Part shown: piece by piece, positions 12,643 to 42,681 of the stretch | Layout of the letters: each line of letters begins with the position of its first letter | Numbering within the stretch: the first letter of the stretch is position 1 | Assembly (NCBI GenBank): GCA_963924555.1 | Contig: OZ004588.1 | Location: 3,224,001 to 3,288,000, forward strand | Direction: 5' to 3' | Length of the DNA: 64,000 nt | DNA from: Crambe crambe | Taxonomy: Eukaryota > Porifera > Demospongiae > Poecilosclerida > Crambeidae | The notes under the pieces: model-generated | The model's database searches: none | Told to the model about the DNA's origin: nothing | The model's input: the letters and a program-made list of their open reading frames with translations, nothing else | Made by a program: the position numbers and the translations under genes

Positions 12643-13228
12643 ATGGGGAACAAGACGAATAAACAGAAGCGTGGGTCCGAGCCCGAGCCAAACTCTTTTC
12701 CTTCGAAGTCCGCAGGGAGCGATCTTTCTTCAGATTCCAACCTCCTAACCTGTGAAGTAAGCCAAAAAAAGACACACAAAGCTGCCTCCTCCCTTCCCCC
12801 TCCTGTAAACATTGACATTGGACCTTCCAGGCCAAATAAGGAAAGTGAGCCTTCCCCTGATGAGTTCTTTGATCCTCCAGACCTTCCTAGCATAGATGCA
12901 GGGAGTAAAAGTTTGTCGAGTGGACCAGCATTTAAGACTGAACCGAAGTCAGATCAATCTAAGTCTGCAGGGAGTGATCTTCCTTCAGATTCCAGTCCCC
13001 TATGCACCCCTGAAGCTGCCTCCTCCCCTCCTCATCTTTTGAACATTGATAAATCATCTGAACTTCCCATGTCAAATAAGGGGAGTGAGCCTCCCTCTGA
13101 TCATCCAGATCCTCCTCTAGACACTGGGAGTAAGAGCAGACCAGCATTTAAGACTGAGTCAAGTCCTCCAAAGAAAATATCACGGCAGGAGAGGCGACGA
13201 GAAAAAAGGGCGAAACGCAAGTTCAAAG
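12643..13228 (+). CDS. Exon 1: Ser/Pro-rich disordered region with basic tail
   Basis: Starts at ATG 12643 (MGNKTNKQKRGSEPEP), chosen as the first ATG of an open frame; the frame is open a few codons further up but only with non-ATG codons. It ends AAAG|GTATCT at phase 1. The 195 residues are rich in Ser, Pro, Asp and Lys with no globular domain. There is an internal duplication: SKSAGSDLSSDSN near residue 24 recurs as SKSAGSDLPSDSSP near 105, and GSKS...PAFKTE occurs twice. The C-terminal RQERRREKRAKRKFK is a likely nuclear-localisation or acidic-surface-binding patch. G2 is present, but position 6 is Asn, so N-myristoylation is doubtful. Confidence 0.6.
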
Positions 13229-16200: not shown

Positions 16201-19200
16201 GTTCAGAAGTAAGTCCATAGCATAGGTAGTAACTTCACTACCTTACTTGTGCAAAAAGCAAATTTTTGGCTGCTAAGACATCCATACCAGCCTGTTTTAG
16301 CCTGTTTTGGCTTTGTGTACCTGTATCTCATGAAAGAATAAATATTCAGCTTACAGTTTCAGAGTTTAGTATATAGCTACTCTACTTCATGCCCTCATAC
16401 GTGAACTTTGCATATATTCAAGAATTTTAGCCAATAGTTCACATTAGCTGGGTGTGTCTTTGCAAACTGAAATAAATTACCAGGATCAATGGCTGCACAC
16501 TTGATACCCATATATTTGATAATAATCCTTTTTCCTTGTATTAATTAATGGGGGCATGTGCAATAAGGAATGGCCAGGCAGTTTATATTGCGTTTCCAAT
16601 CCCGGTCACGTAGTCTATACAATCTATGGTCAGGCGGGACCAGGACAAGAGCTATAATATTCTGAGTGTCCATGCCAAATCGATAGTGTTGGTAGCTATG
16701 CACTAAATAGAACGGGTTAATACCTTTTGTGGACATCATCTTATTCACCATAATCTCCACTGTGGGGTGTGTTAGGTGTGGCAAATTAAACAGCTGTGGG
16801 TCCCTTTCCTGTCTATTATAGGAGCTGCTGAGTCAGTTTGGGGAATCCAAAACTCAATGTGTAGGATTTTCACCTGCTGATGTCAGAAGAGTGACATTTC
16901 CAATGAGACCAATAGTTGAGAATGCAAGCTTTGCAAATTTCCTAATATTCAACAACGTTATGTGAAAATAATGTGGATCATTTTTAAGGGGAAATCAGTC
17001 CTGATATTAGCAGAGACATATTCACTTATAATGACGTCACATTTTTATGCAAGGACAAATAGAGTCCCTATGAAGGGACTCACTTTTCTCTCACCACTAA
17101 ATGTGTACATGTTTATTCATATTGACTGAAGTGAAGTGGGTAGGTCCCTGCTGATATCTTTTAATTAGTGTATCATAGACGAGTTCATTTTAATAATTTT
17201 GCAATATTTACAGCTCCTGCCTTCAGTGTCAAGAACGTTATGGCAGTCCTAAAGACACTTTCATTGCACAATGTTCGTATCTGCCTGTGTATCCCTCACT
17301 ACAAGTATGATTCTATAAAATCCGAATATCACACAGACCAGGAAAGACTGGCAGAACTCATCAAGTATTGGATCTTTAATGATCCATGGGCATCCTGGAG
17401 GAAACTTATACAAAGGCTTGACCAGTGCAACGAGTCAGATATAGCGGACAGGATATGGAGGTATGCAGAGAAACTAACAGGTTAGTGAGTATCATTACTG
17501 AGATGCTGAGATGTGATAATGTAATTGAGCCCACACACTAATTGTATTAGTGAGGAAAGAAATATATGTACATTAACATATAGTACGTGGACAGATTCAG
17601 CATGCTGCAGTTCAATTCTAGAAGTTGGTGGTCAGTCAATCTATGGATCCTACATTCTTTTCTATCAGCATAGACTGTTCCTTTTAGATTAGATTCAGTT
17701 GCAGCTCGTGTATTATCTCTAATTCCTCTAAGTGTTAGTTTAGGTAATCTGTATTTATTTGACTGGCAGCACATAAACATATAAGGACATGAGAGTCTAA
17801 CTTCTATATCTGCTGAGTCAGCTATATCTTGGAGTTGATTGTAACTACTTGACTGCTGCACATGCTGAGACCCATGCCCAGTTGTTAAGAGTAGAGACTC
17901 AACATGTAACAAAGTTTAATTTTTTGTTTGTCAATTTCATTGCACTATTCTAACAAACCCTATTATAGTCTATTTACATTCACTCTGACACCTTGAAGTT
18001 AATGAGTCATGTAATCAGCTCTCTGCTGATGTCTGAAATCAGTCAGGAATCGACAAAGTTATGCTGTAGTTCCAGAAATTTCCAAGTTTAAATATTTTGC
18101 ATTTTAATTTTTCAATGAAATTTAATTTCGGAAATATTATATACAACATCCGAAAATTTTAAACAACGAATTGTTATTGCATCAAATGTGCGTTAATTAG
18201 AGTTCAACTAGTTACCGCATGTACGTATGTAATGGCAGAGTCCGTGGCTGAGTCACAATGTGAGGTGGATTCCTGCATCAGAGGCTATCATAAATACAGA
18301 GCAATATGGACAGCAGCTATTGGAGAGTCTCTTTGTTGTATTAGCAGAGCCTACTAATACAATAGATCAATATGCTGTTGCTGTAATTAGAAGTGGACTA
18401 GTTGTTGGACATTTGCCTAAGAAGATTTCAAGAGTTTGCTCACTTTTTTTGAGGAGAGGAGGTACCATAATAAATATTGTATAGTCACCAACACCAGGAG
18501 ATATTCCGCAGACCTCCCTCAAGGTGGGATTAGAGATCCCCTGTACTTTGCATTTTGAAGGGATCAATTCTTTGAGAAGACGCTTAAAAAAATGCATGCC
18601 CAATCTCAATTCATAATCAGTACTTAAATCATTGTTTTCATCTGCTAAAATTATATTATAAAAGTTACTACCGTACAGCGGTTTTTAAAAAAATATTTCG
18701 TTACGTAAAGAATTACATAAAGAATTATGGTAGTCTTTTATTCGGTATGGTACGATTATTTTAGCGGATGTACAACAATATCTACGGACTTCGCTTCACA
18801 GCTGCTTTTTCACTGGCTTGCATACTATTCTTTGCCTTCATTTCTTCAGGTATAGCCCTCTTCGCAATCGTGGCGACTTCTTAAGTGATGGAATCTAGCT
18901 AGCTAAGAAGAAAGTGGACCAGAAGGTTATGTAAGTTACATATATTGCATGCTGTAGTTGAATGTACGAACGTCTACATGTGGCTAAATGGTGGCTTTTT
19001 ATTGGAAATAGAAAAATTTTTGATAGACTGATTACTGAACCGAATTTTTATTCCCACCAAGATTATCCCGCTGTAAGGTACACATTAAGTACATCAATCA
19101 ATCACCGTTCACATCCACTTCTTCTATCTCTGAATCTTCCACACCAAGTGCTTTATTGTCAACATCAAGTGCTTGACATATTCCAGCTTCGTTCACTATG

Positions 19201-22200: not shown

Positions 22201-24909
22201 ATTAGTTGTTGGACATTTGCCTAAGAAGATTTCGAGATTTTGCTCACTTTTTTTGAGGAGAGGAGGTACCATATATTGTATAGTCGCCAACACCAGGAGA
22301 TATTCCGCAGACCTCCCTCAAGGTGGACTAGAGATCCCCTGTACTTTGCACTTTGAAGGGAAATCAATTCTTTGAAAGACACTTGTAAAAATGCATGCCC
22401 AATCTCAATTCATAATCAGTACTTACATCATTGTTTTCATCTGCTAAAATTGTATTACAAAAGTTGTTTTTTTATATTTCATTAATCATCAAATGAAATA
22501 CAGTTGAAGAATTGCAACCAGAAGGTTAGGTAAGTTACATATAGTGCATGCCGTAGTTGAATGTACGAACGTCTACATGTGGCTAAATTGTGGCTTTATA
22601 TGGAAAAAATCGATAGTATAGACTGATTACCGAAATTGCCGAATTTTTATCCTCACCAAAATTATCCCGCTGTATGTACATCAATAAATCAATCACTGTT
22701 CACATCCACTTCTATCTCTGAATCTTCCATGTCTGAAAAACTGTCGGAATCCTACCTACGTAAGTACGTACTTCATGTATGGACCAGTTTCTTAGCTTCA
22801 CCCATAACTTTGTCCACTCCCTTATTATGAGCGCTACTCTCCTTGAGGTCATAATGTTGGATAAAGATCCACTGGGGCATCTTTAGCCTTGAAATACTTC
22901 TGTAAAGACATGTCTTGAGTATGTCAGAGCCACGTGTTATCTAAATTTCTGTAATTTACAAATATAGTTTTCTGGTAAGTAGTTTTATTCAGACAATTCA
23001 ATTTCGAATACTTCCAACTTCCAAAAATATTTTAGTTTTGAATTTTTTCTGGAACTACAGTAACTAGTATCAATACTCTAAGTGCTAAGTAGATTTTTCA
23101 GAGCTATCTAGATCTTGGGGTTAGTAGGTGAATGCACTGCACATACAGAAAGAGAGCAAAGAGCATTATAGAAATGCAACAGTCACTGAATTCAGGACAA
23201 CAAAGAGGTTCTATGTAACTGAAGTTATTCTGTAATGTATGGAAATGAGTTGTCTCACATAGCCAGCCTCTTGATTGCAATGCTGAGATCACTAGCATAT
23301 GTTAGGAAAGGCTATCGTAGAGGTTTTGTCCATAGGACCAGAAGAGGTGTGATTGAGTGAATTAGACTCTTGCTCTCTAATACAATTTCTTTCTTTTTTC
23401 TTGGCTAGCAATAGTCATGCAAAATGTTAAATTTTAATAATAAGGTCAGTCAGTCCTATTGAAGAGAACTGCAAGAAATGTGAACAAACTACGTATAGTA
23501 GTAAGAGACTTGCTGTATTCTATATTCTGGGGGAAAGTTTAGAATTATTTAGGACAACATCTAGGGGGTGAAATTTCCCCTATGCCCCCCCCCTTATGGT
23601 TAGTTAGGCACACGAATTAGGTAGTTTGAGGTTTCCATGCAATTGTTAACAGTGACTTCTAAATGTTTGACCTCGTAACTTCCCCTCCAAGTCGAAAATC
23701 CTCTTATTTGTATGCTATGGTACATTATGAAAGAGCCAACTTTGGAAAAGTTGGACCATCCACAGCTACTTTAATTAGGTATTGTGTCTCTGAGAGTTTG
23801 AGCTGAGCATTTGCATGTGATGATTATTTTACATATACACCATAGAATATGTGATTCATGATTGGAAGACTGTCAGTTCAGCAGACTAGATCCACCCTTA
23901 CATGCTCTTACCTGTACAGAAACTATTATGTGTGTCTATAATTGATTTTGTATTTAAAATCATTGAGTGGGAAATGGGAGTGGTTATGGGAGGAGTATTT
24001 TAGTTCCTCCTCAAAGAAGAATCACATGCCTTCATTTTTTCTAGATTCACCTACTGAGCATACAAAGTCACAAAAATAGCATACAATATGAGTGCATAAT
24101 TAATTTTGTTTACTGTGCAATGAAGACATGTGAACTTGACCAAACCCATTTCTTACATGTTAGTGATGCTATTCTGCAATCAAGTGAATGGCTACACAAG
24201 ACATGGAAGTGATGCTTTTAGCTAAGTAGAACCCTCACCTCCTAAACAGCCTAATTGATCCGTTGATAGCATAAACTTCCCCTCCCCTCCCACATTGATT
24301 ATTAATTGTATTATCCTCAAACATAGACACACCCACACATAAACATCCCAGCGCCTCACTCTCTATATGGAACCCTCTGCTTGACTAGTACTGTAAATTC
24401 TGTGGGTGTGTCTTATCTGAAGTGTTTGTGTCCTCCCCAGACCCCAGCTTCACCTCTCACAGTTTGCTGGATGCTCTGGATACTGTGGGGGACAGAAAAT
24501 TGAATAGTGTATTTGAGATCCCAAGGCCTATGGGGGGATTGGGGAGAGAGATGAAGTCACGCGAAGAGAAGATAAAGTACTACATGGACACTCATCCAAA
24601 CACTGGATGGAATCACTTGGCTGGGACTCTTCTCTACCAGGAACAACAGACAGCTCTTAAGAAAGTGAAGGGGAATGTTACAGCTGATAAAGGTAGGTGT
24701 GTACATACTAAGTGAGGCAAGGGTGAATATAGTCATGTGATTGGTCAACAGTGGATACTCTTATGAATAAATGACTCTCCAAGTTCAGGACTATAAATAT
24801 GTTTTTCTCACTAGAACACACTCCACCATGTATCCACCACTACCAGAGTATCTACACTCCAAAATACAATTTTTTAAGTTAACCTTATAATTTTTTCCGC
24901 CTAGTCCCA

Positions 24910-24945
<36 letters not shown>

Positions 24946-27900
24946 ATCTTCTCCAGTAATCCTGTTCCAGTGTGTCCACCACTATGTGGAAGTCCCAGTG
25001 TGTCCACCATTATTTGGAGGTTCCAGTGTGTCCACCACTCTTTGGAGGTCCCAGTGTGTCCACCACTATTTGGAGGGTGGAATTGATGTGTACAGAGTTT
25101 TGCAAGTTGCTTGTCACATTGCAAAATGCTAATACAAAAGTTATGACAACTAAATCAACAATGTAGTAAAGCTGAATAAATTTACCATCATGTGACTGTC
25201 ATGCATCAGCCAGATTTGAAAAAAATAGCCAGTACAAGTCTGTGTAGCTAACTATGTCCTACTACCAGCATTCTAATTACTTCTTTGGTAATGGCCAGAT
25301 GACTCCCCATTACTACCCTTGGTCACAGCCTCCTTATCAACAAGAATGGGCAGGTGTAAGTCAGCAAGACCGTGATAACAGCCCTATTCTCATTAGTCCA
25401 TCAAAGAGTACAGTTGAAGATTCTGATCATGACTCAAGTGTAACTGAGCCTAATTTCAGTTAGTGTGAAAATAATTTGTCCCAATGAAAAAAGGACTGAA
25501 CACAAGACATTCATGTTGCGTGACCTTGATATGGGGGAAGTGAGCTCAATATTGGCTTTTAGAAAAGAGATACTTACCCAATTTGGTGATGGACTTATTG
25601 ACGCGATTTTGATTTCGGATTCTACAAAGGAACTAAGCGAGTATGGGTTAGAAACGATCACGATTTTGATGAACTGATCCAATCACTTCAAACAAAATCT
25701 AATACTATAACTGTATGGTGTGAAGGACGCAGCAAGAAACGAAAGAAGGACTCCTCAGGCTCTGAAGATGAATCTAACGGAACAAAAAAGAAAAAAAAAG
25801 GATCTAGTGATGACAAAATGTCAAGAGTTGATGATATAACAGACAACTTGAGAGAAAAGCATGGGCATATGTACAGTAACCTACAGTATTGTGTATGGGC
25901 TGAAACAATTGTTGGAGGCAGGCATGCATCTATGGAAAATCCTCATATTTCAAGAAAACCAAAATTCTACCATCACGTGATGTTTCATCAGTAAATTTTG
26001 AGAGAAGAAACCCTACTGTGATTACTCCTGTTAAAGCTGCTGAATTGAAGACAATTTATATATCTCAAATTAAAGAACTCTACTCGTTGATCGAGGTTGG
26101 GGCTATAACAGATGGTGACTTTCAAAAAGTATTTTAGAACTGATGGATAAATTGTAAGGCTATGTTGCTTTTGATATTACCATACATTCTAATCTTAGCA
26201 CCCACTAAGATTATGGAGCAAGCAATTGCTTAAATGGAAAGAATAAATTAGGGGTCTTAATTTGTTATGCACTATTCTATTTAAGAACTGCTTGGTTTTA
26301 CCCAAAACTGGCAAGATCTAGACTAGCTGTAATTTGAAATGATCCTGCAACTTCAGTCTGGTCATAATGCTACGCCTAAAACTTTCTCAGAATATCAGTC
26401 TCTAAAAATATATTATATAAAAAGTTACATATAACCTGCATGTTTAATATAATTTACACAATCTAGTGGAGTAATTGAAGCAAATGCTTCATTCTAGGTG
26501 TGTTTGTGGATTGATAACTTAGTTCATTATCTCTAAGATATGACTTCACTTGACTAAATGCTTCCTCAATGGGGTTCAAGTCAGGGGAGTAAGGTGGTAA
26601 AAATCGTACTAAAGCACCAGTGGCTGAAATCAATTGAGTTACTGCTTCTACATGGTGGATAGATGCATTATCAAGTATGACTACAGAACAGGGATTGTCG
26701 CCACCATCGAATGGAAGTAGTATAGGAAGTAAGCACCGTTGTACAAAAATTCATGAAAACATCCGAGTTCACATTTCCCTCTGCAATATAAACATCTTCT
26801 ATTCCCCGAAAAGTCAGTATCCCTATGGCCGACAACCTCTTACCATATAAAGTAAATTTGTGGGAAACAGGTTTCATGCCTTGAAGACCATATCCATATT
26901 TACGTATTGTATTATGGTGGTTTGATCCTGTTTCATTAAAGTTTTGGGGTTAAATTCCATTATTTCAGAGATATATTTTACTTTCTGAACATCACACCTT
27001 TGTCTTGCTACTAGACGCATTTTCTGTCTAGTCATACCCAGTCTTTTGATGGTACAGCAAATAGTAGCACAATCATACCGGGATCCTGTTATATGTAACA
27101 GCTTTTGTTGTATCTCACGAAGATACATGCTGGGTGTACTCAGCAGCGTCTCTAAAATGGTGATTTCCTCAAACTCACTCATTTGTGGTAATGGACCATG
27201 CCTTTGGCATTCAGGTGATACATCCTAAGTTGTATAAAAAAGATAGATGTATCTCTCAATTGACCTGATATTTACATACAGTTCCCTAGAAATCTCTTTT
27301 ATTGTCTTCTTTTGTAGAAGATACTTCCAAATTATCCACCATCTAAGGTCTTTTGAGTATCCTTTTGGCATTTTGACTGCTTCTTGTACTGTACAGTAGT
27401 TATTTTGAATTTGAATTCTGAGCATGCTCACCTGTGTCTGCTAGCTAGATAGTACATACAGTGTACACAAGGGCTATAGTACTACTGAATTTCACTACAC
27501 TATATATATTGGTGTCTTAAAATTCATTCTTGTTTGCAGTTAAAATTTGCTACTGAATGGAATGGGAATTTCTGCAAAGTGCAGATTTTAGCTGCCGAAA
27601 CCAAATTGTGCACTACAAGTAGAAGTCCTGGGTTCCTGGGTTAGAAGTCCTGAGAACATAGTTTCTTACAATTATATGATGTAAATCTGGGCCATGGGGA
27701 CCATGATAATTTTAGTAATTATTAAACAAGTTCAACATAAAATTATAACCCTGATTATGCATGAGATTCACAGATCTATTTCTATTCAGCTTACTACATT
27801 GTTGATTTAGTTGTCACAACTTTTGTATTAGCATTTTGCAATGTGACAAACAACTTGCAAAACTCTGTATGTGTTGTCTACTCATAATTATGTTCATTTG

Positions 27901-30118: not shown

Positions 30119-30149
<31 letters not shown>

Positions 30150-33100
30150 GGGGGGGGGTAACAGCTGAAAGTTTATGGAAGGCATTATTTCATTATTATT
30201 ATTATTGAAATGTGCAACACAAGTCTTTTTATGTCAAAACAATTCCCACTATATACAGTACCTGTCATTCATCTCTTGATGTTAACACTAAGTGCATGCA
30301 TACACCTCATATTGTCTTTAGAGCATAAACTATAGTTGACTGAAGTAATACATGCTCATACTATTTCCATTTGTTCCTGTTACTTGTTGAATGGTCTTGT
30401 TTTTGTTGCTCAGCTCATGTTTTATTCTCTATGTTCTCTCCCACAGACCCCTCCCTCACCCTCACTAATCTCACTCAGCTGCTGGAGGATGTGAGGTATT
30501 TGGATCTTGTGTCTGATTATCTAAACATCCCCTTCTCAGTGTATAATAGTATTGCAACACAACAGTCCAGTGAGTCTGAACGTAGGAAGGCTTATTGGGA
30601 GTGGTACCTGAACAACCACCCATGCCCTTCATGGCGTCACATTGCTAATGCTCTGTATATGAGTAGGGAGCATGGAGTGCTAGAAGTGTTGAAGAGTCGC
30701 TACCTTAAAGGTGAGTGTGGTTCTCTGTGATGATTACTGGAATGGTTGATTTGCATGTGTCCTGTCCCCAACTATGTAAAAACATCATCCTACATGCCAC
30801 TGTTATTAATTAAATTTCTTCTCTCATAATCGATTGTTGTTGTTGTTGTTGTGATTGTTGTTATTTTTGTTTGTTTTAATTCATTGGGTAGATGATATGA
30901 ATATCGTGTATTAGTCATCTGCTATGGAGTACTGGCATGAAGTTACATATAAAAATACAATACTCTTTTTGCAGAAATATTAATTCAGTGTATTTTCTGC
31001 TGGTACTTAAGCCACTCTGTTTTTAGGAAAGAAGAATGAAGGAACCATTTGTAGTAGAAAATGGTAGTTCTTATGAAGAGATGCAGTCTTGCTGATATAG
31101 CTACTTACATTCAAGAATGAGCCTTCAACAAGAAAACAAGAAAACAGTGTTCTAGCATAGCTGTACTACTCCACTGACAGTTGATAGAATTCTTTCTCTG
31201 CATACCTATCACATGGTTTTATATGGATTAACAAATCTACATGAGGTCTTTACCATATGCAGGGTAACTTACCATGACAGTAGCTATAAATTTGAAGGCT
31301 CTCAATATACTGCTCTGAAAGCCTTGCAAATCGGCAGAAAAGAGCTATTGGGCCTCTGAATACCTTCTTATCAGACTATGCAGATTAACTCATTAACAGC
31401 ATTACATAACCACATACCTCAATATCTACAAACACATTACAAGCATGCATGAGACTTTTACAAGCTATTTGAAATAGGATTACAAGAAGATACGAAGACA
31501 ACAAGATGTCAGTCTAGGTGAATCTGGTTCTCTGTGATGATTACTGGAATTATTGATTTGCATGTGAGCCTCCCCAAGGAAGTGTTATTAAAGAAAGTTT
31601 AAATTGGTTCTCGATTATCGTTATTATTGTTGTTGTTATTATTGTTATTGTGATTGTTGTTGTTAATATTTGTTTTGATTCATGGGGTAAGTTGTATGAA
31701 TGTCATATATATTTGACATCTGCTATGGCTAGAATACTGGCAGGAAGTTGAAGAACTCTTGCTGTTTTGCTACAACAAAAATTAATGACCAATTTCCTAT
31801 GGCCATAAACCAAGGATTTGCTAAATTCATGAATGATTTGCTAAATTCATAAATTCATGAAGAATTCTGAGGCCGATCTATTTATAATCCAGCTAAGCCT
31901 AAAATCTTGATAGCTTTACTATCTAACGATAGGCAGCTCCGATACTATCTGCTGCTAGGCTAGCAAAGCGTAGTAACACTCGAATTCAGTGGCAGCTCAA
32001 TGCCTCTTCTCTTTGTTAGGCCTAGTTGGTCATGTGCTCGTGCATGGTTGTAGCACCAATTCGTCATGGTGATGTATGTATTTCCTTGGACTCACGGGTT
32101 TCTATGGTCTTGCGATATTTTCGAGTACCAGGCCCTCCACTATCATAATTGAAAAAGAGGGCCGGGGGACAAGGCTAATCATTTGATTTTGATTTATTTT
32201 CAGGGTCATTAAAATTAATCACATGACATTTAATTACCTTGTACAAAATGGAGTAAAAGGTAATTACAAGTATAAGCTGTAACAAAGAAAATAAACAAAT
32301 TAAAAGCATGAATTATTATTTAACTGAAAATTTCCCAATTTATGGTAGCTACTTACATTCAAGAATGAGCCTTCAACAAGAGAACAATGTTCTAGCATAG
32401 CTGTACTACTCCACTGACTGTTAAAGATCGATACTCTGCATATCTAATTCATGTTTTTATATCAAAATAAGACAAGTCCAAACTTTATTAGCTGATTCCA
32501 CAGTCTTCTGTGCCTAATTGCTTCAGCCAATTAACAAATATTGTGGTTATGTTTGACTACTTCAGGTTCAAAGTTGGATGAGCAGTGCTTGTAGGATGCT
32601 ATAACTGAGCTAGATTCATTTACAAGTAAAGGGAAAATATCTATTCTGAATAAAGAAGGAAAGTTAGGGGTGGCCATGTGTGATTCAAAAAGTTCAGCAA
32701 CAAGAGAGTAGGATAAGATAATATAAAGGGAGTGAAGTAGCTCGTAGTTTGGCTTACTTGACTGAAGTTCGCTCTCTTAACAGCATTACATAACCACATA
32801 CCTCAACTACAAGCACATTACAAGCTTATACATGACATTTTTAAAGCTATTTTACGAGGACACAAGTGGCATCAACCAGGCCCAAATTTTTGTGAGGTAG
32901 AATTAGTGAAAAAAACACTAATTTCATGAATTCCATACCCCACAAAATTTCGCACTATACGATAATGGAACTTCAGCACAATAATTATAATTTATTAGCA
33001 CTTTGTTGGCTACAGCAGAATTTGCTATAAGAATCAAAGTAGTTAGAACAGAGTCACTTAATATGGAAGCCGAGAAGGGCACTTTTTCTGCGAAATACAG

Positions 33101-36100: not shown

Positions 36101-39100
36101 ATGGACATGTTAACAGCATTACATAACCACATACCTCAATATCTACAAGCACATTACAAGCATATACATGACAATTTTGCACATTTACAAGCTATTTGCA
36201 ATGAGATTACAGGAAGTCATATGAAGCAGATGCAAGAAGTAGTTCTTAGAAATTATATACTCAGTTGAGTTACAATGAGCCCTAAATAGTGGTTAGTAGC
36301 ATTATTATAGTCTGAAATTTTCACTGTTAAAAAAAAAATTGGAATGTGAACCATAATTATTACGTTTTGTGTACTGATTCTCTTCAAATCCAACGACAAG
36401 TTCCAGTCAATATACTCCAGCACAATATAAATTTACCAAATGTTAATACATGTTGAATTCACATGGACATGCTCAGTCAGCACTTAGGTAAACAAGGAGA
36501 AAACTAGCACCCTCACATTTCTGTGAGATGTCCAGTTTCTCATGATTCAAACATCATGGGTATCCACCCAGCATGTCTCACCCAAAGTTTAAACACTTAT
36601 CTCTATGGTAACATGCATGTGTATAGGTTTAATCCAACTGAGCTAAGATTGTGGTCATAGTATTTCTATCTATATGCTTCAACCAACTACCCTGTATGAA
36701 TCACTCCAAAATCATCAACTTTCTGTCCAGCAACAACCTAATTACCAACTTTGTGCTAGTGGTACTATCATCATGTGCATATATAAATCTATAAAACTTT
36801 TGCCTATCGATCCTTGAATGATTTCAAACTTGAATTATTTGAACAAATTGAGAAATTCCATGAGTATCGTGTCTCCGATAATTTACTTGTAGCTCCTCTT
36901 GTTCTTACTTCTCATTTGGAGGTCCTCGTCTTGGTACTTACTGCAGTCTCACTTGCTTTTTGTCTTGAATCACTTATCTTGAGCTAGTTAACAGCATCAC
37001 ATAACAACATACCTCAATATCTACAAGCACATTACATACAAATTTTAATGCGATTACAGGAAGTCATTTAAAAGTTAAATATGAAGAACCTAATAAGTTA
37101 TGTTGGCAAGACCATCATCCAAACCCAAGAACTACTTCTAGTTCAGAACATCGTTAAAACTTCAGTTATATTGGCTATAGCAGCTCCAGGACTTACAATA
37201 AATAGAAAACAAAGAAGATTTAGATATTCAACTGGACACATAATTGAAAGTTTACCATCTGTAATGAGCTTTCTAGAAAAGAATCACCTGTTCCTTGCAT
37301 TGATGAATTTGAGCATTTAGTTTAATAATAATTCATGAGGTTTGTATGATAAAGCACTAGCTATTGAAATATCAAAATCTCATGGAACCAATTAGCTAGC
37401 TCTTTGTGGAATCAGTGTACATAACATTGTGTGTAAGTGGTTGAACTTTCAATATTATTACGGTTTTCAGGAATGTGATAAGTAAATGTTTGTATGGTGT
37501 TAGTTTTATAGGAAGGCACTTCAGGAGTTGAATAGCATTATCTGGTTTTCTGTTTTGGCTAACACTGAAGTCAGCAGCTCCAGCTGAAGTGGTACTAGGT
37601 AGCTAGCCTGTGAATGGCTAGCAAACTATTGATTGCTGATTGAATACATAGCCATTCTTGACCTTCTGTAATTCAGCTGACTACTACTAACATGAGTAGC
37701 ACTTACTTTCCTAGGTCCAATGCACTTGGCAACTAGTGAGCATAAGAAAGAAGAAAATAAATTGTTTACTTATCATTCCACTAATATAGTAGAATGTTCT
37801 TACATGTGCATGCAAAAAAAGTATTCATATAGCTATTAAATTTTCAATCCCATGGTACAAATTATTCATGGTGTATGCAATGATGTTCTATGTCAGTTGT
37901 GTGCATGACACATACCAAGTAGAAAAAAATTAATTTCAGTGGGTATATTAATATAATTTGATGTTTATACATGCATAATAGCCTCGTACCCAGGCCCACT
38001 TTTTTCGCGAGGCAGTGGAAAAGTGAAGGGCCTAGTATAAGTTGCATGCGCATGCGCTTAATTAGACACGAGATAATACGTAAAATTTCGTAAAATTTCA
38101 TAATCATATGATTTTGAACTTACAATATACTGTCACTTAGTGCAGTCTAGAACTGAAATGGAGAAAGTTGAATATTGTGTCTCCACTGTAGCTCTGGACT
38201 TCTCACTTGGAGGTCCTTGTCTCAGTTCTTACTGCAGTCACACTTGCTTGCTTGTCTCAAATGACAATCACTTTACTCTTGAGCTAGTTAACAGCATCAC
38301 CTAACCAAATACCTCAATATCTACAAGCACATTACAAGCAACAACCCAAGAACCAAATTTAAAGTTAGTGCTTTCTAGCTCTATAGGAAGCATGCATGAA
38401 GAAATCCTTTAGTTAAAAACATGTTTACTATATCATCATTCTATCAAACGTTTCCCTGATTCCTCGTTGATTCTTAAATAACTTCAAACCTGAAATATAT
38501 ACAGTCACTTGATTAGAATAGTATAGAACTGAAATGGAGAAAATCCATGAATATCATGTCTCCAATAATTTGGCAGTAGTTCCTCTTGCTCTGGACTTCC
38601 CACTTGGTTGTTACTTCTTGCAGTCTTACTTGTCAAATAACAATCAGTTTACTCTTGAGCTAGTTAACAGCATTACATACCTCAATATCCACAAGCACAT
38701 TACAACCATATGCATGCAAATTTACAAGCCATTTGTAATGCGATTACAGGAAGGTTAGGGGAAGATTCAAAGAGTTATGTTCGTGGAGTTGATATCAAGG
38801 CAAGGCCATCATCCAAACTCAACAAAAGCCAAGAACTACTTCTAGTTCAGATCATTGATGAAACTTCAGTTATGTCAGCTCCAGGACTTACAATAAATAG
38901 AAAACAAAGAAGAAACATAAAGATTTAGATATTCAACTGGACACATTGAAGGCTTACCATCTATAATGAGCTTTCTATCACCTCATAGAAAAGAATCACC
39001 TGTTCCTTAGATTGATGAATTTGAGCATTTAGTTTTCATAAGGTTCATACGATGAAGCACTAGCTATATGATATTGAATTGACAAGGTCTCAAATTGCAT

Positions 39101-42100
39101 CTTGGAACCAATTAGCTCTTTATGGAATCAGTGTAAATACCATAATCGTATAAATTTTCAGAGGTTTAAAATTTCACGATTTCCGGAGCTGTTCCTATAA
39201 TAAAGAATTTCTGCAGATCTAATTTACACATGGAAAATAATGCATGCGCATAATAGCTATATCATTGCCTGCTGCTGGGGCTGAGTGACATGCATGATGG
39301 CTACCTTCTCGTGATTTGTGGCTACTACAGAGAAACCTAGATAGTCCCCCAAAAAGAAGAAAAGCTGGGCTGGCGATGTCAGACTAAAATCTGGACTGCT
39401 ACGGAAAGCGAGACACTTCATTGTAGAAGAGAGACAGGTAATGGCCATGATCCCGCATCACGCACGCATGCACATCGTTATCATTATGATGTCATAGTAC
39501 TAATTATTTTCAAGGATTCTGATCGACTACGAAAAAAATAAAATAAAATCCCATCGAAAATTTATACGATTACAGTATATTTTTTCACTGCTACTACTTT
39601 TCAGGAATGTGATAAGTATATATTATTAGTTTGATAGGAAGGCACTTTTGGCATTATCTGGTTCTCCACCATTGGCTGACTAAAGTGGTACTAGGTAGCT
39701 AGCTATCCTGTCAATTACTTGATTGCTGATTGATTCTTGACCTTACGTAATTTGGAGCTGGCTACCACTAACATGATCAGCACTCACTTGGCAGCTAGTG
39801 AGCATAAAGAAAGAAGAAAGGAAATTGTTTTGTTTATCATTCCACTATCATATCTGGAATATAGTAGAATGTCCTTACATGTGCATGCAAAAAACTGTTA
39901 CGTAATGTCCAAGAAAAAACTGCAGGATAGTATGCAATGATGTTCTATGTCTGTTGTGTGTGTAACACATACCAAGTAGAAAAAAATTAAATTTGAGTGG
40001 GTGTATTAAATATTAGTAATATAATTTATACATGCACAATGACATTCGTCTGTTTTTTGTTTCATTGACTACCCGTAGGTTCCGCTGAGTCACGTCGACT
40101 GTATAACGAAGCAATGAAGCAGGGACACGTAAAGTCCCAGATCAACAAAGCCCTCCTTTACGGGGCTCCAGGAACCGGAAAATCAAGTTCAATGGACCTT
40201 TTTGTCGGTAACCCTCCAAGACAAGCCAGAATAAGCACTCCTTTAGCTGCTCGTCCAATTACAATGATTCAAATGGGAATCACATCAAAGGAGTGGAAAA
40301 AGCTTCATCCAAAAGAACGGAAAGAAATTCTAGCAAGGGCCATATATGCTCAGCTTCATGCCAACGACACAAATTCAGGTGAAGATTGTGAGTCATCAGC
40401 TAATTCTGGTGAGAGTTCTGATTCTGATGAAATATTAACGACTCCTGAGCATAAAGAAGCTCGTAGTAAAGAGGATAAGTCTACACGTGACGTACATCCA
40501 CGAGTACACCCAGCAACTCCTTCCAGTCCAACATCTGCTAGCAAACCAAAGAAAGGTTCTCATTCGAAGGAAAAGATTTCACTGCCATCCCTTGGCACAC
40601 ATGATGAACTAACAAAATTATTGGATGAAATTTCCAAATCAGATGATCTTGAAGCTTTACCTGTCTTCCGGAAAGTTAAACTAATCGATTCTGGTGGACA
40701 ACCGCAATTTCATGAGGTGTTACCTGTATTTCTTCGTCGCATGTCCCTCTACATATTCGTCTTCAAGTTGTCAGAAGAACTCGCCACCAAGCCCATGGTA
40801 GAGTATTTTGGGGAAGATGGGAAACGTGTGGGGACACCTTACCAATCAGCTCAGTCCAACGAGCAGCTATTGAAGCACTGCCTTCGCACTTTGCACACTC
40901 ACAGATCGTCTCCCAATACTAAAGGTGAGTGCTCCAAAATCATGATCATAGGGACCCACAGGGACGAAGAACACCTGTGCACGACCGAGACAAGAGAGGA
41001 GAAGAACAAGAAGTTAGAAGAGCTGTTACTGCCGATGTTCCAAGAGGAAGTCGTCTATTACAACCTCGCAGAAAATGAGGTGATCTTTCCAGTCAATGCC
41101 AAAAATCCTGAAGAGCTTGATAAGAGTACAGCTAGAGATATCCAAAGTGTAGTCCTAACAAAGTGTATGCCTGATCCCATTGATGTGCCCCTTCAGTATT
41201 TCTCTTTGGAAATTATCCTTGAAGAAGTCAGCCTTTCTTTAGACAGAGGGGTATTGAGCAAAGAAGAATGCCTTAGAGCAGCAGATAAGCTTTTCTTTAA
41301 TGAGCATACACTGGATGCAGCTCTCCAGTTCCTAGATGAAATTTCATCAGTCTTTTATTTCCCCGAGGTTCTGGATGGTGTCGTATTTACTAACCCTCAA
41401 GTCCTTTTGGATAAGGTAACCGAGTTGGTGGAGATTACCTATTGCTTGAGAAAAAAGGTTGGTGGAAAAGCACTTCGTGCACTCTCTGGAGGCTGGAAGA
41501 AGTTTAAAGATCATGGCATTGTTAGCTTAGAGCTTCTGCAAGAGAAAGAGTTTAATAAGCATTATGTGCCTGATATCTTTACTCCTGTAGATCTGGTCAA
41601 GCTCTTTAGAAAGTTGCTCATCATAGCTGACTTTAGTGCTTCCGAGTACATCATGCCTGCCCTCCTTCCTGTCCTTGAAACTGAGAAGGTTCATGAATAT
41701 CGTGTCTCCAAAGATTCGCCTGTAGCTTCTCTTGCTCTGGACTTCCCACTTGGAGGTCCTCGTCTTGGTACTTACTGCAGTCTTACTTGCTTTCTTGTCT
41801 CCAATGACAACCAGTTTCCTTGTCCTTGGAAAATAGTGTTGCTTCCTCATTCCAACACTCCAGCTTGCCTGAATCGAAACTGCACCAAATTCATGGTGCC
41901 AGGCTTTCCTGGCTCTGTCACTTTGATTGACACATTTACACATTTTGAAATACATATGCACACTGCTGAAAAAGTACGCAGCAAGATGTGTTCCTTTGTC
42001 TCTCAAGCCATTTTTGCGGGTCTGAAGAAAGCAACAGTGGTCCTTGGCTACAACAACTCCATCCCATCTAAGGCACTGCTCTGTCCGTGTGATGGTAGTG

Positions 42101-42681
42101 ACCCTCATGTTGCCACATTTGGAGATGGAGTCTGGACCTGCAGTCGAGACTGTAGTGTGTTTGGAGACTTAACTCCTAGGCAATCCCAATGGTGTGATCA
42201 AGCTACTATGAAAGGTTGGCCAAATTTTGAACACTAGCTAATGTTACATCTTTGACTTATTGATGTTATTATTTATTTAGCTAGTGCCTTCCTCCACTAC
42301 TTTACTTTTGATAATTTTAGTCTTATCTTTATCATGGAATTTGTGATTATTTCATTTGCAGGAGCTTCTGCCTCTTCAACTCCTACTATGATGGAAATCA
42401 TTCGCTTCCCTCTAAAAGATTCCAAAGTGAACTTGGCTCAAGAAATCGGAACCAAGTATTTCGAATTTGGAACTTTCTTGCTTGAAGATGCCACTGGCGC
42501 TCGTATCAGTGCCTTGAAAAAAGAGTTGAGAGATAATGCAGAAGATATCAATCGCGAAATCTTCCAAAAATGGCTGAGTGGAGATGGGAAAAAGCCTGTT
42601 TCATGGGAGACTCTAATTACTGTACTTGAAGACATTGGATTGAGTGAACTAGCAAAATCGATAGCAGAAGTCAAGCAATAA
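12643..42681 (+). CDS. Multi-death-domain ROC-COR GTPase (six-exon model)
   Basis: Model: 12643-13228, 17214-17480, 24441-24692, 30447-30710, 40079-42214, 42362-42681. Every one of the five introns is phase 1, and the joined length (3825 nt) is an exact multiple of three, 1274 codons plus TAA. Domain order: Ser/Pro-rich disordered region with a basic tail (1-195), death-domain-like modules at about 196-284, 285-368 and 369-456, ROC GTPase with COR (about 470-1160), C-terminal death-domain-like module (1169-1274). ROC-COR-death-domain is the arrangement of the C-terminal half of DAPK1, so a role in GTP-regulated death-fold signalling is a reasonable inference. No kinase or LRR domain is visible. 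Introns of 4-9 kb are filled with transposons. The join of exon 1 to the rest, and of the separate DD exons to each other, is not proven; two adjacent genes or alternative exons are possible. Confidence 0.6.
13300..14360. repeat. Direct repeat pair in intron 1
   Basis: 13300-13640 and about 14105-14360 share GGGTGTGTCT(A/T)TG(G/A)GTATGAAGT, then CACCAATATGGACA and the run CCTATTGCAACCTCTCTATA followed by CAGAAATATCATACTGTAT. Insertions and deletions separate the matched blocks. No TIR or coding content is evident; it could be an old tandem duplication or a dispersed repeat. Confidence 0.7.
14361..15488. other. Intron 1 interior, nothing recognised
   Basis: AT-rich intronic sequence with a few short unsupported ORFs (the longest, at 14790-14972, has no family resemblance). 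I see no repeats or sites that I can support. Confidence 0.4.
15489..15603. repeat. Foldback element 1 in intron 1
   Basis: The arm AGTTCACTCTTTTCTAGCTC (from about 15489, extending through GTTTTAATGCA) is inverted from about 15566 to 15603 (TGCATTAAAAC...GAGCTAGAAAAGAGTGA). Arm length is about 37 bp with a few mismatches; the loop is about 40 bp. Hairpin-forming MITE or remnant. Confidence 0.7.
15945..15968. repeat. Perfect 24-bp palindrome
   Basis: TGTGCACTAAA at 15945 mirrors TTTAGTGCACA with no spacer (24 bp in all). It lies in a larger imperfect symmetric region with AAGTGTGCTTT and AAAGCACACTT nearby, and beside GTCACATGAC-type motifs that recur at 15615 and 16020. Possibly the centre of a degenerate foldback. 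Confidence 0.8.
16064..16631. repeat. Inverted repeat pair (about 45-bp arms)
   Basis: GGCCATAGATTGTATAGACT (16068 on, continuing ACGTAACTGGGATTGGAAACGC) is inverted at about 16585-16631 with two mismatches. The arms enclose about 480 bp that includes the candidate first exon at 16179. This may be the TIR pair of a small element or an inverted duplication. Confidence 0.75.
16179..16965 (+). CDS. Candidate two-exon small gene in intron 1
   Basis: ATG 16179 opens MEESTTRSSE and ends at a consensus GTAAGT donor (16209, phase 0). After TCTATTATAG the frame continues from 16822 as ELLSQFGESKTQCVGFSPAD, then FPMRPIVENASFANFLIF, to a TGA at about 16963-16965; about 57 codons. The two splice sites are in frame with each other, but the coding length is small and no family is recognised. 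It could be a 3'-truncated gene fragment carried between the inverted arms. Confidence 0.3.
17214..17480 (+). CDS. Exon 2: death-domain-like module 1
   Basis: 267 nt between TATTTACAG and a GTTAGT donor, phase 1 at both ends, 89 residues. The second half, ERLAELIKYWIFNDPWASWR followed by KLIQRLDQ...IADRIWRYAEKL, is a textbook death-domain helix 4-6 pattern (the buried Trp of ASW, the LI..L motif and the terminal aliphatic helix). The first half (VMAVLKTLSLHNVRICLCIP) is weaker and may carry helices 1-3. Death domains form homotypic assemblies in apoptosis and innate-immune signalling. It is the most canonical of the three central modules. Confidence 0.7.
17547..17912 (-). CDS. 121-codon minus-strand ORF, hypothetical
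   Basis: Uninterrupted ORF containing DIADSADIEVRLSCPYMFMC and LPKLTLRGIRDNTRAA. Its 5' part (ADSAD... through the N-terminus) overlaps the flank shared with the second unit at 21.66-21.77 kb, where it is broken. The composition looks like real protein rather than low complexity, so it may be a fragment of a retroelement or host gene. Family not recognised. Confidence 0.25.
   Translation of the reverse strand: MLHVESLLLTTGHGSQHVQQSSSYNQLQDIADSADIEVRLSCPYMFMCCQSNKYRLPKLTLRGIRDNTRAATESNLKGTVYADRKECRIHRLTDHQLLELNCSMLNLSTYYMLMYIYFFPH
18232..18600 (+). pseudogene. HIRAN-like domain ORF, unit 1 (frameshifted)
   Basis: ATG 18232 opens MAESVAESQCEVDSCIRGYH and continues KYRAIWTAAIGESLCC. The next expected piece, EPTNTIDQYAVAVIRSG and VVGHLPKKISRVCSLFLRRG, lies one frame over, so there is a frameshift within the TCTTTGTTGT stretch. 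The domain pattern (EPxNxxDxYAVAV, VGHLP) is that of HIRAN-like DNA-binding modules. The domain ends early here with a stop after RRGGTI; the match resumes in another frame (SADLPQGG region). Identification by pattern, not by search. Confidence 0.5.
19944..21085. mobile_element. Non-autonomous element with GGGTCA-repeat termini
   Basis: Both ends are built of diverged copies of a roughly 30-bp unit (CCCTAGGGT...TGACC...GGGTCACT), at 19946-20135 and 20985-21083, in inverted orientation: AGGGT(G/A)(G/T)A(A/G)TG inward on both sides. It splits the Pogo-like transposase between LESVREKRKTDNE and YLLKLREAGG, which dates its insertion after that transposon. No ORF of its own is recognised. No clear target duplication seen. 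Confidence 0.7.
20480..20779. mobile_element. Nested MITE with 15-bp perfect TIRs (hAT-like ends)
   Basis: CAGTGGAGTAGGAAT (20480-20494) is exactly inverted at 20765-20779, followed inward by G-rich/C-rich inverted blocks (GGGGGGAGGGGGGCAGG). The CAGTGG terminus resembles hAT ends. The 8 bp on each side do not match, so the expected target duplication is not seen. It sits inside the GGGTCA-repeat element, itself inside the Pogo-like element: a three-layer nest. Confidence 0.75.
21871..23061. mobile_element. Pogo-like transposon, unit 2 (internally deleted)
   Basis: Repeats unit 1 with a 1.2-kb length: AGTTCCAGAAATTTCCAAG at the left and TTCTGGAACTACAG ending about 23061 at the right. On the minus strand the transposase N-terminus (MSLQKYFKAKDA, from about 22920) is fused, after a deletion, to the DSEIEVDVNS C-terminus near 22700, so more than 2 kb is missing. 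The HIRAN-like ORF is retained. Confidence 0.7.
22036..22377 (+). pseudogene. HIRAN-like domain ORF, unit 2
   Basis: The ATG at 22036 gives the same N-terminus as unit 1 and hits the same frameshift. The shifted frame from 22064 is longer here: EPTNTIDQYTVAVIRNG, VVGHLPKKISRFCSLFLRRG, then RRYSADLPQGGLEIPCTLHF to a stop at 22373-22375. Because both copies share the frameshift, it predates the duplication, or else it is a real intron or alternative start rather than decay. Confidence 0.5.
23090..24420. other. Intron 2 tail, nothing recognised
   Basis: AT-rich intronic sequence. Only short ORFs without resemblance and a few C/G-rich spots (for example CCCCCCCCC at 23586). I see no repeats with matched ends. 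Confidence 0.4.
24441..24692 (+). CDS. Exon 3: death-domain-like module 2
   Basis: 252 nt between TCCTCCCCAG and a GTAGGT donor, phase 1 on both sides, 84 residues. It begins DPSFTSHSLLDALDTVGDRK and contains REEKIKYYMDTHPNTGWNHL, then AGTLLYQEQQTALKKVK. The spacing of the HP...W...LA..L motif matches exon 4. The middle segment (FEIPRPMGGLGREMKS) is unusual. Known role of the fold is protein-protein assembly; the partner is unknown. Confidence 0.6.
24910..25080. repeat. Poly-G (35 G) plus four-copy 30-bp minisatellite
   Basis: A 35-base G run at 24910-24944 is followed from about 24968 by four tandem copies of a 30-bp unit whose core is CCAGTGTGTCCACCACTATT with TGGAGGTC. A partial copy of CACTCCACCATGTATCCACCA precedes the G run. 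The tract lies just 5' of the Tc1-like element and 220 bp into the intron after exon 3. The G run could form a quadruplex, and its length is unreliable. Confidence 0.9.
25254..26137 (+). pseudogene. Accessory ORF of the Tc1-like element
   Basis: A protein split over several frames. The first part, from ATG 25254, reads MSYYQHSNYFFGNGQMTPHY (Tyr/Gln/Pro-rich, disordered). The second, from about 25465, contains MLRDLDMGEVSSILAFRKEI and GDGLIDAILISDSTKE, resembling a ubiquitin-fold/PB1-like module, continuing in another frame as VWVRNDHDFDELIQSL and TITVWCEG. A Lys/Ser-rich linker (KKRKKDSSGSEDE) follows. The end, AELKTIYISQIKELYSLIEV plus GAITDGDFQKVF, resembles a SHOCT-type short C-terminal module. 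At least three frame changes disable it. It lies inside the TIRs, so it travelled with the transposon. Its function in transposition is unknown. Confidence 0.6.
26464..27431 (-). pseudogene. Tc1/mariner-type (DDE_3) transposase
   Basis: Reading on the minus strand: MPKGYSKDLRWWIIWKYLLQ and an HTH (TIKEISRELYVNIRSIERYI), one in-frame TAG, then LREIQQKLLHITGSRYD (second HTH half), a catalytic region GSNHHNTIRKYGYGLQG in which the Asp expected before ETGS is Asn, KFTLYGKRLSAIGILTFRGI, VVILDNASIHH (second Asp) and PPYSPDLNPIEEAFSQVKSY (third acidic residue and NPIE motif), ending at a TAG near 26464. At least two frameshifts, the stop and the D-to-N change make it inactive. Start at 27371 is preferred over the upstream 27431 reading because MPKGYS begins the conserved region. 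Confidence 0.8.
27870..29286. other. Intron 3 middle, no recognised gene
   Basis: AT-rich. Contains short dispersed phrases: CTATACATTCCTATTTGACAT at 28003 and 28330, and TTTTGCCAAC(G/A)GATACAGTT at 28936 and 29958. A 60-codon ORF (28593, MAAVENNLAQ from 28671) ends soon and has no family resemblance. Confidence 0.4.
29287..29388. repeat. Foldback element 2
   Basis: TTAGATCACTCCAGTGAGTA...TACAAGGTTTAAAATAGA is inverted across a short loop at 29345-29388 (TCTATTGTAAACCTTGTA...TGATCTAA) with about six mismatches over 45 bp. Hairpin-type MITE in intron 3. Confidence 0.75.
30111..30158. repeat. (GT)n followed by poly-G (26 G)
   Basis: Eleven GT units run directly into 26 Gs, an unusual compound tract about 290 bp upstream of exon 4. 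Possible Z-DNA/quadruplex-prone sequence; length may be affected by sequencing. Confidence 0.9.
30447..30710 (+). CDS. Exon 4: death-domain-like module 3
   Basis: 264 nt between TCTCCCACAG and a GTGAGT donor, phase 1 on both sides, 88 residues. Begins DPSLTLTNLTQLLEDVRYLD, with LVSDYLNIPFSVYNSI as helices 2-3, then WYLNNHPCPSWRHIANALYM and EVLKSRYLKG. The shared start (DPSxT) and end motif with exon 3 make these paralogous modules, probably from exon duplication. The intact reading frame over 264 nt inside a repeat-laden 16-kb interval supports selection. Confidence 0.7.
30760..34980. repeat. Intron 4 repeat nest, left part
   Basis: Several repeats interleave. Direct repeat: AGCTACTTACATTCAAGAATGAGCC at 31103 and 32346, continuing into GTTCTAGCATAGCTGTACTACTCCACTGAC. 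A tail motif (ACAGCATTACATAACCACATACCTCAATATCTACAAGC... type, about 90 bp) occurs at 31397, 32780 and 33715. Blocks of TTG trinucleotides occur at 30835 and 31620. A hairpin-like CCAGGCCCTCC/GGGCCGGGGG pair lies at 32125-32168. No ORF with coding character. Confidence 0.7.
34046..36620. repeat. Inverted and direct duplication inside intron 4
   Basis: 34046-34190 (ATGTTACCTTAGAGATAAGT...) is inverted at about 36460-36620, arms of about 150 bp with some gaps. In the same interval a direct duplication links 33170-34000 with 35520-36450, sharing CACTAAATTTAATACTCACA and GGTAATACTTGCCAAGTATG. The interval therefore went through at least two rearrangements. Confidence 0.7.
34983..35217 (+). pseudogene. 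Decayed copy A of a COR fragment
   Basis: The stretch GAGAAAGTTCATGAGTATCGTGTCTCCAATGATTTG...GTAGCTTTTCTTGCTCT (from about 35147) matches exon 5 near 41685-41735 (AAGGTTCATGAATATCGTGTCTCCAAAG). A second partial copy (GAGAAAGTTCGTGTCTACAATG) lies at 35060. It is preceded by TTCTTGAATAATTTCAAACTTG, repeated in the other copies. Stops and frameshifts; no open frame. Confidence 0.65.
36795..37320 (+). pseudogene. Decayed copy B of a COR fragment plus downstream ORF
   Basis: 36848-36950 repeats the CATGAGTATCGTGTCTCC and GGAGGTCCTCGTCTTGGTACTTACTGCAGTC part of exon 5. It then departs into a tail absent from exon 5 (GAGCTAGTTAACAGCATCAC). An open frame at 37081-37320 reads TIIQTQELLLVQNIVKTSVI and APGLTINRKQRRFRYSTG. 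That frame recurs, broken, at about 38800-38930. It is unknown whether this tail is an old transposon or a lost part of a paralogous gene. Confidence 0.6.
37981..38060. repeat. MITE-like hairpin (GCCTCGTACCCAGGCCC)
   Basis: CCTCGTACCCAGGCCCACTTTTTT is followed after TCGCGAGGCAGTGG by AAAAGTGAAGGGCCTAG, giving a hairpin with short arms, then the alternating GCATGCGCATGCGC. A related CCAGGCCCTCC hairpin lies at 32125. Looks like one end of a dispersed element; the other end is not seen. Confidence 0.45.
38155..38345 (+). pseudogene. Decayed copy C of a COR fragment
   Basis: GAGAAAGTTGAATATTGTGTCTCCACTGTAGCTCTGGACTTCTCACTTGGAGGTCC parallels exon 5, then TGCAGTCACACTTGCTTGCTTGTCTCAAATGACAATCA, then the same tail as copy B. 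Frames are broken. Confidence 0.65.
38500..38930 (+). pseudogene. Decayed copy D of a COR fragment
   Basis: The best preserved copy: an ORF from 38534 reads MEKIHEYHVSNNLAVVPLAL, DFPLGCYFLQSYLSNNNQFT, paralleling KVHEYRVSKDSPVASLALDF and FLVSNDNQFP of exon 5, then leaves homology (LELVNSITYLNIHKHIT). A second ORF at 38710-38928 repeats the QELLLVQ...APGLTINRKQRR tail of copy B. Copies B and D, with about 1 kb downstream of each, form a tandem duplication: 37872-37980 matches 39930-40040. Confidence 0.65.
40079..42214 (+). CDS. Exon 5: ROC-COR GTPase core
   Basis: 2136 nt, open throughout, entered after ACCCGTAG at phase 1. G1/P-loop is GAPGTGKSS at model residues 485-493 (Lys491). G3/Walker B is LIDSGGQPQF (Asp660), the DxGGQ signature of Roc/Ras-like domains. 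The G4 position reads GTHRDE (Asp752) rather than NKxD. About 165 residues separate G1 from G3, far more than in a canonical small GTPase; the insert is Ser/Glu/Asp-rich (NSGESSDSDE) with a basic stretch. A COR-like region follows, with FPEVLDGVVFTNPQVLLDKV and FFNEHTLDAALQFLDEISS, and the end is Cys-rich (CPCDGSD, WTCSRDCS). The internal ATG at 40114 could be an alternative start, but 35 open in-frame bases after the acceptor match the phase of upstream exons. If the final intron is retained, translation stops at 42235-42237. Confidence 0.8.
42362..42681 (+). CDS. Exon 6: C-terminal death-domain-like module
   Basis: Starts after TTTCATTTGCAG at phase 1 and ends at TAA 42679-42681, 106 residues. 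Residues read NLAQEIGTKYFEFGTFLLED, then ISALKKELRD...REIFQKWLSGDG and PVSWETLITVLEDIGLSELA, the helix pattern of the death domains seen at the end of metazoan ROC-COR or NLR-like proteins. The preceding intron is only 147 nt, far shorter than the others. Its donor GTTGGC is non-consensus, so splicing may be inefficient. Confidence 0.7.

Follow-up and report, generated by a model that had tools for sequence, protein, structure and literature searches.

Apparent exchange of death-type exons in a tandem family of ROCO-type GTPase genes of the sponge Crambe crambe

The gene described here lies in a 64,000-nucleotide stretch of the Crambe crambe genome (the window; contig C11, positions 3224001-3288000) and appears to be a member of a large tandem sponge family of ROCO-type GTPase genes, whose variable N-terminal modules would serve intracellular non-self recognition. 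The probability of this reading, and of a recognition role for the family, was put at roughly 0.6. The gene structure and the exchange of modules were considered very nearly certain on the strength of the sequence comparisons. What is new here is that the modules seem to have been exchanged between copies.

Gene structure and domain content

An earlier sequence-only reading of the window had joined six exons into one gene, with five joins (13228-17214, 17480-24441, 24692-30447, 30710-40079 and 42214-42362), phase 1 for all five introns, one symmetrical 1-1 exon for each central module and a reading frame closed across 30 kb. The joins were correct to the base, and the structural claims were borne out. 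Intron lengths reach 9.4 kb, and all five introns are of the GT-AG type in phase 1; exons 2, 3 and 4, each a single 1-1 exon, have 267, 252 and 264 bases; and the six exons, joined along the plus strand from 12643 to 42681, amount to 3,825 nt and 1,274 codons, with a single stop at the very end. The features of the gene are as follows.

12643..13228, plus strand: exon 1, with the ATG start, a Ser/Pro/Lys-rich leader of 195 codons and a phase-1 donor
17214..17480, plus strand: exon 2, Death domain in a symmetrical 1-1 exon (Pfam Death, 23.6 bits, above the cut-off of 22.6)
24441..24692, plus strand: exon 3, putative death-like module in a symmetrical 1-1 exon, homologous to exons 2 and 4
30447..30710, plus strand: exon 4, putative death-like module in a symmetrical 1-1 exon, homologous to exon 2, dN/dS 2.5
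40079..42214, plus strand: exon 5, putative ROC-COR-type GTPase, with subthreshold Roc and COR-A matches
42362..42681, plus strand: exon 6, putative C-terminal death-like module and stop (Pfam Death, E 9.9e-4)

The order and phases of these exons are judged to exceed chance, because the exon order 2-5 recurs, compressed into about 5-6 kb, in paralogs on C5, C10, C15 and C21, where phase-1 sites flank exons 2-4 and are also present at the exon-5 acceptor. The exon 6 of these paralogs was close to that of the window on C15 only (76%), and weak on C5, C10 and C21. A phase-1 AG acceptor, a GT donor and an open frame were found together in 54 of 56 exon-2 segments, 55 of 58 exon-3 segments and 53 of 56 exon-4 segments, a tally over all extracted segments in which a few exons are counted twice where loci overlap. 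About half of the eight misses were extension artefacts, and the rest were damaged or unclear exons. Pfam assigned no family to exon 1 and, at E values up to 1, found no kinase family and neither NACHT nor LRR in exons 1-6. A fragment of a DDE_1 transposase (44.8 bits, cut-off 22) was present within intron 2, on the minus strand at 19262-19693.

The death modules proposed from the sequence were searched against Pfam exon by exon; exon 2 was recognised directly, exons 4 and 6 weakly and exon 3 not at all. Twenty-six of the 27 members of the exon-2 family matched Death at E values up to 0.1, and the family profile matched the FADD death domain (E 0.0033); exon 2 is a Death domain. Direct Death matches were obtained in 4 of the 33 exon-4 members (best E 8.5e-6) and in none of the 32 exon-3 members, and the match of exon 6 reached 19.6 bits (cut-off 22.6). 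Profile comparisons returned homology between exons 2 and 3 (96.3%, E 1.6e-9), exons 3 and 4 (98.7%, E 2.6e-16) and exons 2 and 4 (97.7%, E 1.7e-12), while control comparisons of exons 3 and 4 with exon 5 stayed under 1%. In a comparison with a small profile built from six of the genome's canonical Death domains, exon 2 scored 34% and exons 3 and 4 under 1%. The predicted death fold of exons 3 and 4 rests on their kinship to exon 2, because their Pfam and canonical-Death matches are weak or absent: exon 4 would weakly qualify as a Death domain, and exon 3 as a death-type module solely by way of exons 2 and 4. Searches of the PDB with profiles of exons 3 and 4 gave nothing above chance, and NCBIfam gave no match to exons 4, 5 and 6. 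Weak Pfam matches of exon 4, that to Imm5 among them, fell below their cut-offs and were rejected. The exon-6-type module also occurs far outside the family arrays, on C1 at 8.1-9.25 Mb (dozens of matches, in a stretch that also holds COR-A matches) and on C18, C2, C6 and C20.

Exon 5 looks like a divergent ROC-COR. It contains a P-loop (GAPGTGKS, near 40162) and a DSGGQ motif (near 40687), which we take, on an assignment made by eye, to be its G motifs, followed by a COR-A match at 41188-41505. Roc was matched in all eight exon-5 members (best E 2.2e-4), none demonstrably above the curated cut-off. The exon 5 of the window itself scored 17.5 bits against Roc (cut-off 27), rising to 21.4 bits with an insert removed, and 18.7 bits against COR-A (E 0.0018, cut-off 35.3), which lies in the right place and order after Roc. 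Both domains of the ROC-COR assignment in the sequence-only reading were matched below their curated cut-offs, although colinear relatives on C9 pass the COR-A cut-off: each of the six above-cut-off COR-A matches at 4.3-5.04 Mb of C9 is preceded, within 30 kb and on the same strand, by exon-2-like and exon-4-like matches. In the PDB, neither the exon-5 profile nor pieces of this exon found anything above chance, and megablast of exon 5 against phages gave no match. A long Ser/Glu/Lys-rich insert at about 40366-40650 (residues about 95-190 of exon 5), between the P-loop and DSGGQ, is the least conserved part of exon 5 among the copies. The ROCO expansion in this genome is very large, with 149 of the 150 COR-A matches listed (from 339 candidates) passing the cut-off; the listed matches are on C1, C3, C5, C8, C9, C11 (7.1-7.3 Mb), C13 and others, many of them belonging to other arrays and often set within an open frame of roughly 700 codons.

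The C11 array and the histories of its modules

The genome searched comprised 143.14 Mb in 119 contigs, and the family counts are lower bounds, as taken from 150 scored matches, or 63 for exon 5. At least 40 copies of exon 2 were found in the 1.58-3.82 Mb stretch of C11, of which 37 are on the plus strand and 3 on the minus; in nearly all of them exons 3 and 4 come next. The tandem array holds about 40 copies over 2.25 Mb of one chromosome, with further copies elsewhere. Among the best 63 of 579 candidates in the exon-5 search, 62 were near full-length, 59 were without internal stop and 37 were on C11. Of the 57 copy groups extracted, 53 retain the order of exons 2, 3 and 4, and 38 of the 53 are on C11. 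Exon 2 of C10_8541 is broken, and its second piece makes up one of the 57 groups, itself among the 53. Exon sequences were extracted for the C11 copies and 15 copies elsewhere, and C1, C6, C9, C12 and most of C8 and C15 are represented by listed matches.

Two types of leader exon were found in the array. Exon 1 of the window gene matched 15 other C11 copies at 92-96% identity, 2.3-4.2 kb upstream of their exon 2, so that it precedes exon 2 in 16 of the 40 listed C11 copies, including that of the window, at 2.3-4.6 kb (5 of 21 exon-1 matches, partial or weak, were not used). An exon with a 2A motif was found in eleven other C11 copies, 6.7-13.7 kb upstream of exon 2; this count leaves aside one second piece, three C11 matches near 7.1 Mb, and two others on C11 that contain a stop and are 20 and 58 kb away from the following exon 2. 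No C11 copy had both leaders (p 0.001). The window holds one exon of the second type, and the exon 2 of the copy to which it would belong lies 9.6 kb further downstream, beyond the window.

63688..63889, plus strand: putative 2A-type leader exon for the following gene copy, with 67 codons, GDVETNPGP at its end and then a phase-1 donor

At all six loci read, that of the window among them, this exon has about 67 codons and ends in NPGP, followed by a GGTGAGT phase-1 donor, and the motif D(V/I)ExNPGP was present in the leader exons read. We infer that the 2A-type leader is spliced to exon 2, and it could send one protein to two places. At the C5 and C10 loci read, an exon-6-type module lies about 150 bases after the 2A exon, as a further 1-1 exon, identified by eye, near the N-terminus.

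The histories of the modules were compared in the 38 C11 copies (703 pairs). The identities of exon 2 and exon 3 were uncorrelated (r 0.05, Mantel p 0.13), and that of exon 4 was weakly correlated with exon 2 (0.24) and exon 3 (0.18; Mantel p about 0.003), so that linkage is not wholly lost. Within the exon-2 unit, the two halves and the flanking introns correlated at 0.83-0.92; the half-exon correlations were 0.64 for exon 3 and 0.54 for exon 4. In tree tests, the data of each of the three exons rejected the trees built from the remaining exons (dlnL 245-1500, AU p no higher than 1.1e-4). Exon 2 and exon 3 each have two main classes, and all four pairings of these were seen (in 16, 10, 8 and 3 of the 38 copies, with one copy apart); 36 of the 38 copies have a distinct module set at a 5% cut. 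Similarity showed no relation to distance along the array (r -0.12 to -0.03). The intact exon-6 matches on C11 fall at about 96-100, 88-90 and 66-68% identity to that of the window, and the nine matches of the 96-100% class belong, with positions matched by eye, to copies with all four combinations of exon 2 and exon 3.

A tract of apparently recent exchange between the window copy and another copy of the array, C11_2973, was located around exon 3.

23244..27743, no strand assigned: putative recent exchange tract spanning exon 3, 99.0-100% identical to C11_2973 in 300-base blocks

The tract is about 4.5 kb long and both edges are inside introns. Its flanks are 96-99% identical on the left and 92-98% on the right, with an unaligned stretch at about 21.7-22.9 kb, and the same two copies are 70.5% identical in exon 2 and 91.2% in exon 4. 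An open frame of 130 codons with a Lys/Ser-rich middle and no Pfam match lies inside the tract, in intron 3 (25602-25994, plus strand).

Exon shuffling had originally been deduced from intron phase alone. The conflicting module histories, the exchange tract with its intronic edges and the exon-6-type internal exon on C5 and C10 now support it, and suggest that the family was built by shuffling symmetrical exons whose modules have separate histories. The modules would have spread by crossing-over or gene conversion with edges in introns, and the frame would survive such exchange because every junction is phase 1. The accompanying suggestion that death folds might be gained or lost fared less well within the array, where the single clear-looking loss (C11_3712, with exons 2 and 5 and without 3 and 4) was rejected, as 200 N between exons 2 and 5 mark an assembly gap. 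A possible module gain was seen in C11_3482 (L152, C11:3487640-3495400), where exons 4 and 5 are separated by a truncated exon 4 and an additional exon 3 whose splice sites are good. In C11_3382, exons 2 and 3 are listed and exon 4 is not, and an exon-6-like match with a stop lies 0.8 kb past exon 3. Frame breaks in exon 5 (L149 and L150) and a broken exon 2 (L136) are either damaged genes or assembly errors.

Selection on the modules and possible roles of the family

One-ratio codon models were fitted to the C11 copies in IQ-TREE. The dN/dS was 1.21 for exon 2 (2dlnL against 1 of 2.8, not significant), 1.32 for exon 3 (5.5, a mild difference) and 2.52 for exon 4 (48.3), tree-based values that within-exon recombination (half-exon correlations of 0.54 in exon 4 and 0.64 in exon 3) can bias. 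It was 0.30 for exon 5 (6 rows, 621 codons; two rows incomplete at the 5' side, and the frame-broken L149 and L150 left out) and 0.17 for exon 6 (8 rows, 98 codons). By counting, the number of pairs in which dN exceeded dS, out of 703 that are non-independent, was 625 in exon 4, 264 in exon 3 and 242 in exon 2. These values point to diversifying selection on exon 4 and purifying selection on exons 5 and 6. Exons 2 and 4 have hypervariable residues around positions 18-25, 28-36 and 66-73, exon 3 has them at the matching places, and the hypervariable columns of the three modules coincide beyond chance (p 2e-6, 9e-4 and 3e-3). They presumably form the faces that take part in death-fold assembly.

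The likeliest biology would be intracellular recognition of non-self, either microbes or foreign sponge tissue. The three death-type modules at the N-terminus would form an array of interchangeable 1-1 exons, and their variation would give each copy its own recognition or pairing specificity, acting on the ROC-COR switch; the conserved C-terminal module of exon 6 would recruit a shared downstream adaptor and so provide a common output. The sequence-only reading had proposed that a protein with three such modules before ROC-COR and one after it would be a multivalent signalling scaffold. Against recognition, some copies carry frame breaks or stops, the dN/dS of exon 2 does not differ from 1 and that of exon 3 does so mildly, recombination within exons can bias these ratios, exon 4 keeps a weak correlation with exons 2 and 3, and exons 3 and 4 miss the profile of canonical Death domains. 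A more specific form of the proposal is that the death folds themselves are the hypervariable recognition parts, with about 40 tandem ROCO-type genes swapping 1-1 exons through their introns, varying at the same places in three modules and carrying either a plain or a 2A leader. We advance this form tentatively, at somewhat less than an even chance.

The same variation might instead be a wiring code, in which the variable death modules pair with co-evolving host partners and diversification separates parallel signalling lines, with no foreign ligand involved. Death folds usually pair with death folds, possible partners are numerous (at least 150 Death-domain matches in the genome, from 150 scored of 965 candidates), and the conserved exons 5 and 6 fit a common output. 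This would, however, require a partner set that diversifies in step, and where a large tandem family diversifies as strongly as exon 4 does, its genes more commonly act in host-microbe interaction or self-recognition, so that we regard such a code as rather unlikely. Tandem arrays also recombine without selection, and the damaged copies together with an exon 2 compatible with a dN/dS of 1 would fit neutral birth and death of copies with gene conversion and no special recognition role. The high ratio of exon 4, which the (non-independent) pair counts repeat, beside the low ratios of exons 5 and 6, and the coincidence of hypervariable sites between modules make this improbable. Most improbable is that exons 2-4 and exons 5-6 are separate genes that merely lie in one order: the window introns are long and the join is predicted from sequence, but the compact copies on C5, C10, C15 and C21 have the same order and phase-1 sites, and exon 5 begins at a conserved acceptor, upstream of which the frame is open for just ten bases.

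According to PMC5450542, sponges tell self from non-self with high specificity. The array is a concrete and testable candidate for this discrimination, and the recognition reading, if it holds, would suggest that death folds may serve as the varying component of recognition as well as its adaptors. The uniform phase-1 rule would make module exchange directly measurable between individuals by long-read sequencing.

Comparison with known systems

The gene resembles DAPK1, of the metazoan ROCO group with a death domain, in having a putative ROC-COR followed by a putative C-terminal death domain, and differs in having three putative death-type modules where the passages on DAPK1 place a kinase, before ROC-COR (PMC6337361). 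In Amphimedon, the passages on the NCOA6 clade describe 357 TRADD-N proteins with an N-terminal unit of 1-3 Death-like domains, variable architectures and a proposed counter-invader role (PMC8195603). The large sponge expansion and the N-terminal Death-like unit are shared with the Crambe crambe family; the death unit is followed by TRADD-N there and apparently by ROC-COR here, and those passages describe no such ROCO family and no exon exchange. A 2026 paper on sponge NLRs mentions neither ROCO nor GTPase in its main text (PMC12909245). A description of the family was not found in the open-licence literature on sponge ROCO or death-domain GTPases, shuffled death-domain exons, sponge death domains under selection and sponge 2A, a search scope that takes in few subscription papers.

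The LRR-ROCO genes of brown algae, proposed to be immune receptors, have one LRR per 72-bp phase-2 exon, and exon shuffling, diversifying selection and alternative splicing are reported in the sections concerned (PMC11378527). The sponge family resembles them in its putative ROCO GTPase and in N-terminal one-module exons of uniform phase; the sponge genes differ, as far as those sections describe the algal system, in their death-type modules, phase-1 exons and apparent exchange between tandem copies. If the sponge reading is true, receptor-like families that shuffle and diversify would have arisen from ROCO GTPases on at least two occasions, using LRR exons in brown algae and death-module exons in an animal.

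Sea urchin NLR genes, in the passages that treat them (PMC4981915), resemble the sponge family in having an N-terminal 2A-like motif and in being an expanded family with death domains. They differ in their NACHT-LRR architecture, and the putative 2A motif of the sponge stands at the end of a leader exon of its own, which some of the copies have. The 2A-type leader sequences are widespread in the Crambe crambe genome, with 111 matches listed, many of them on C8 and C9 and some near other arrays.
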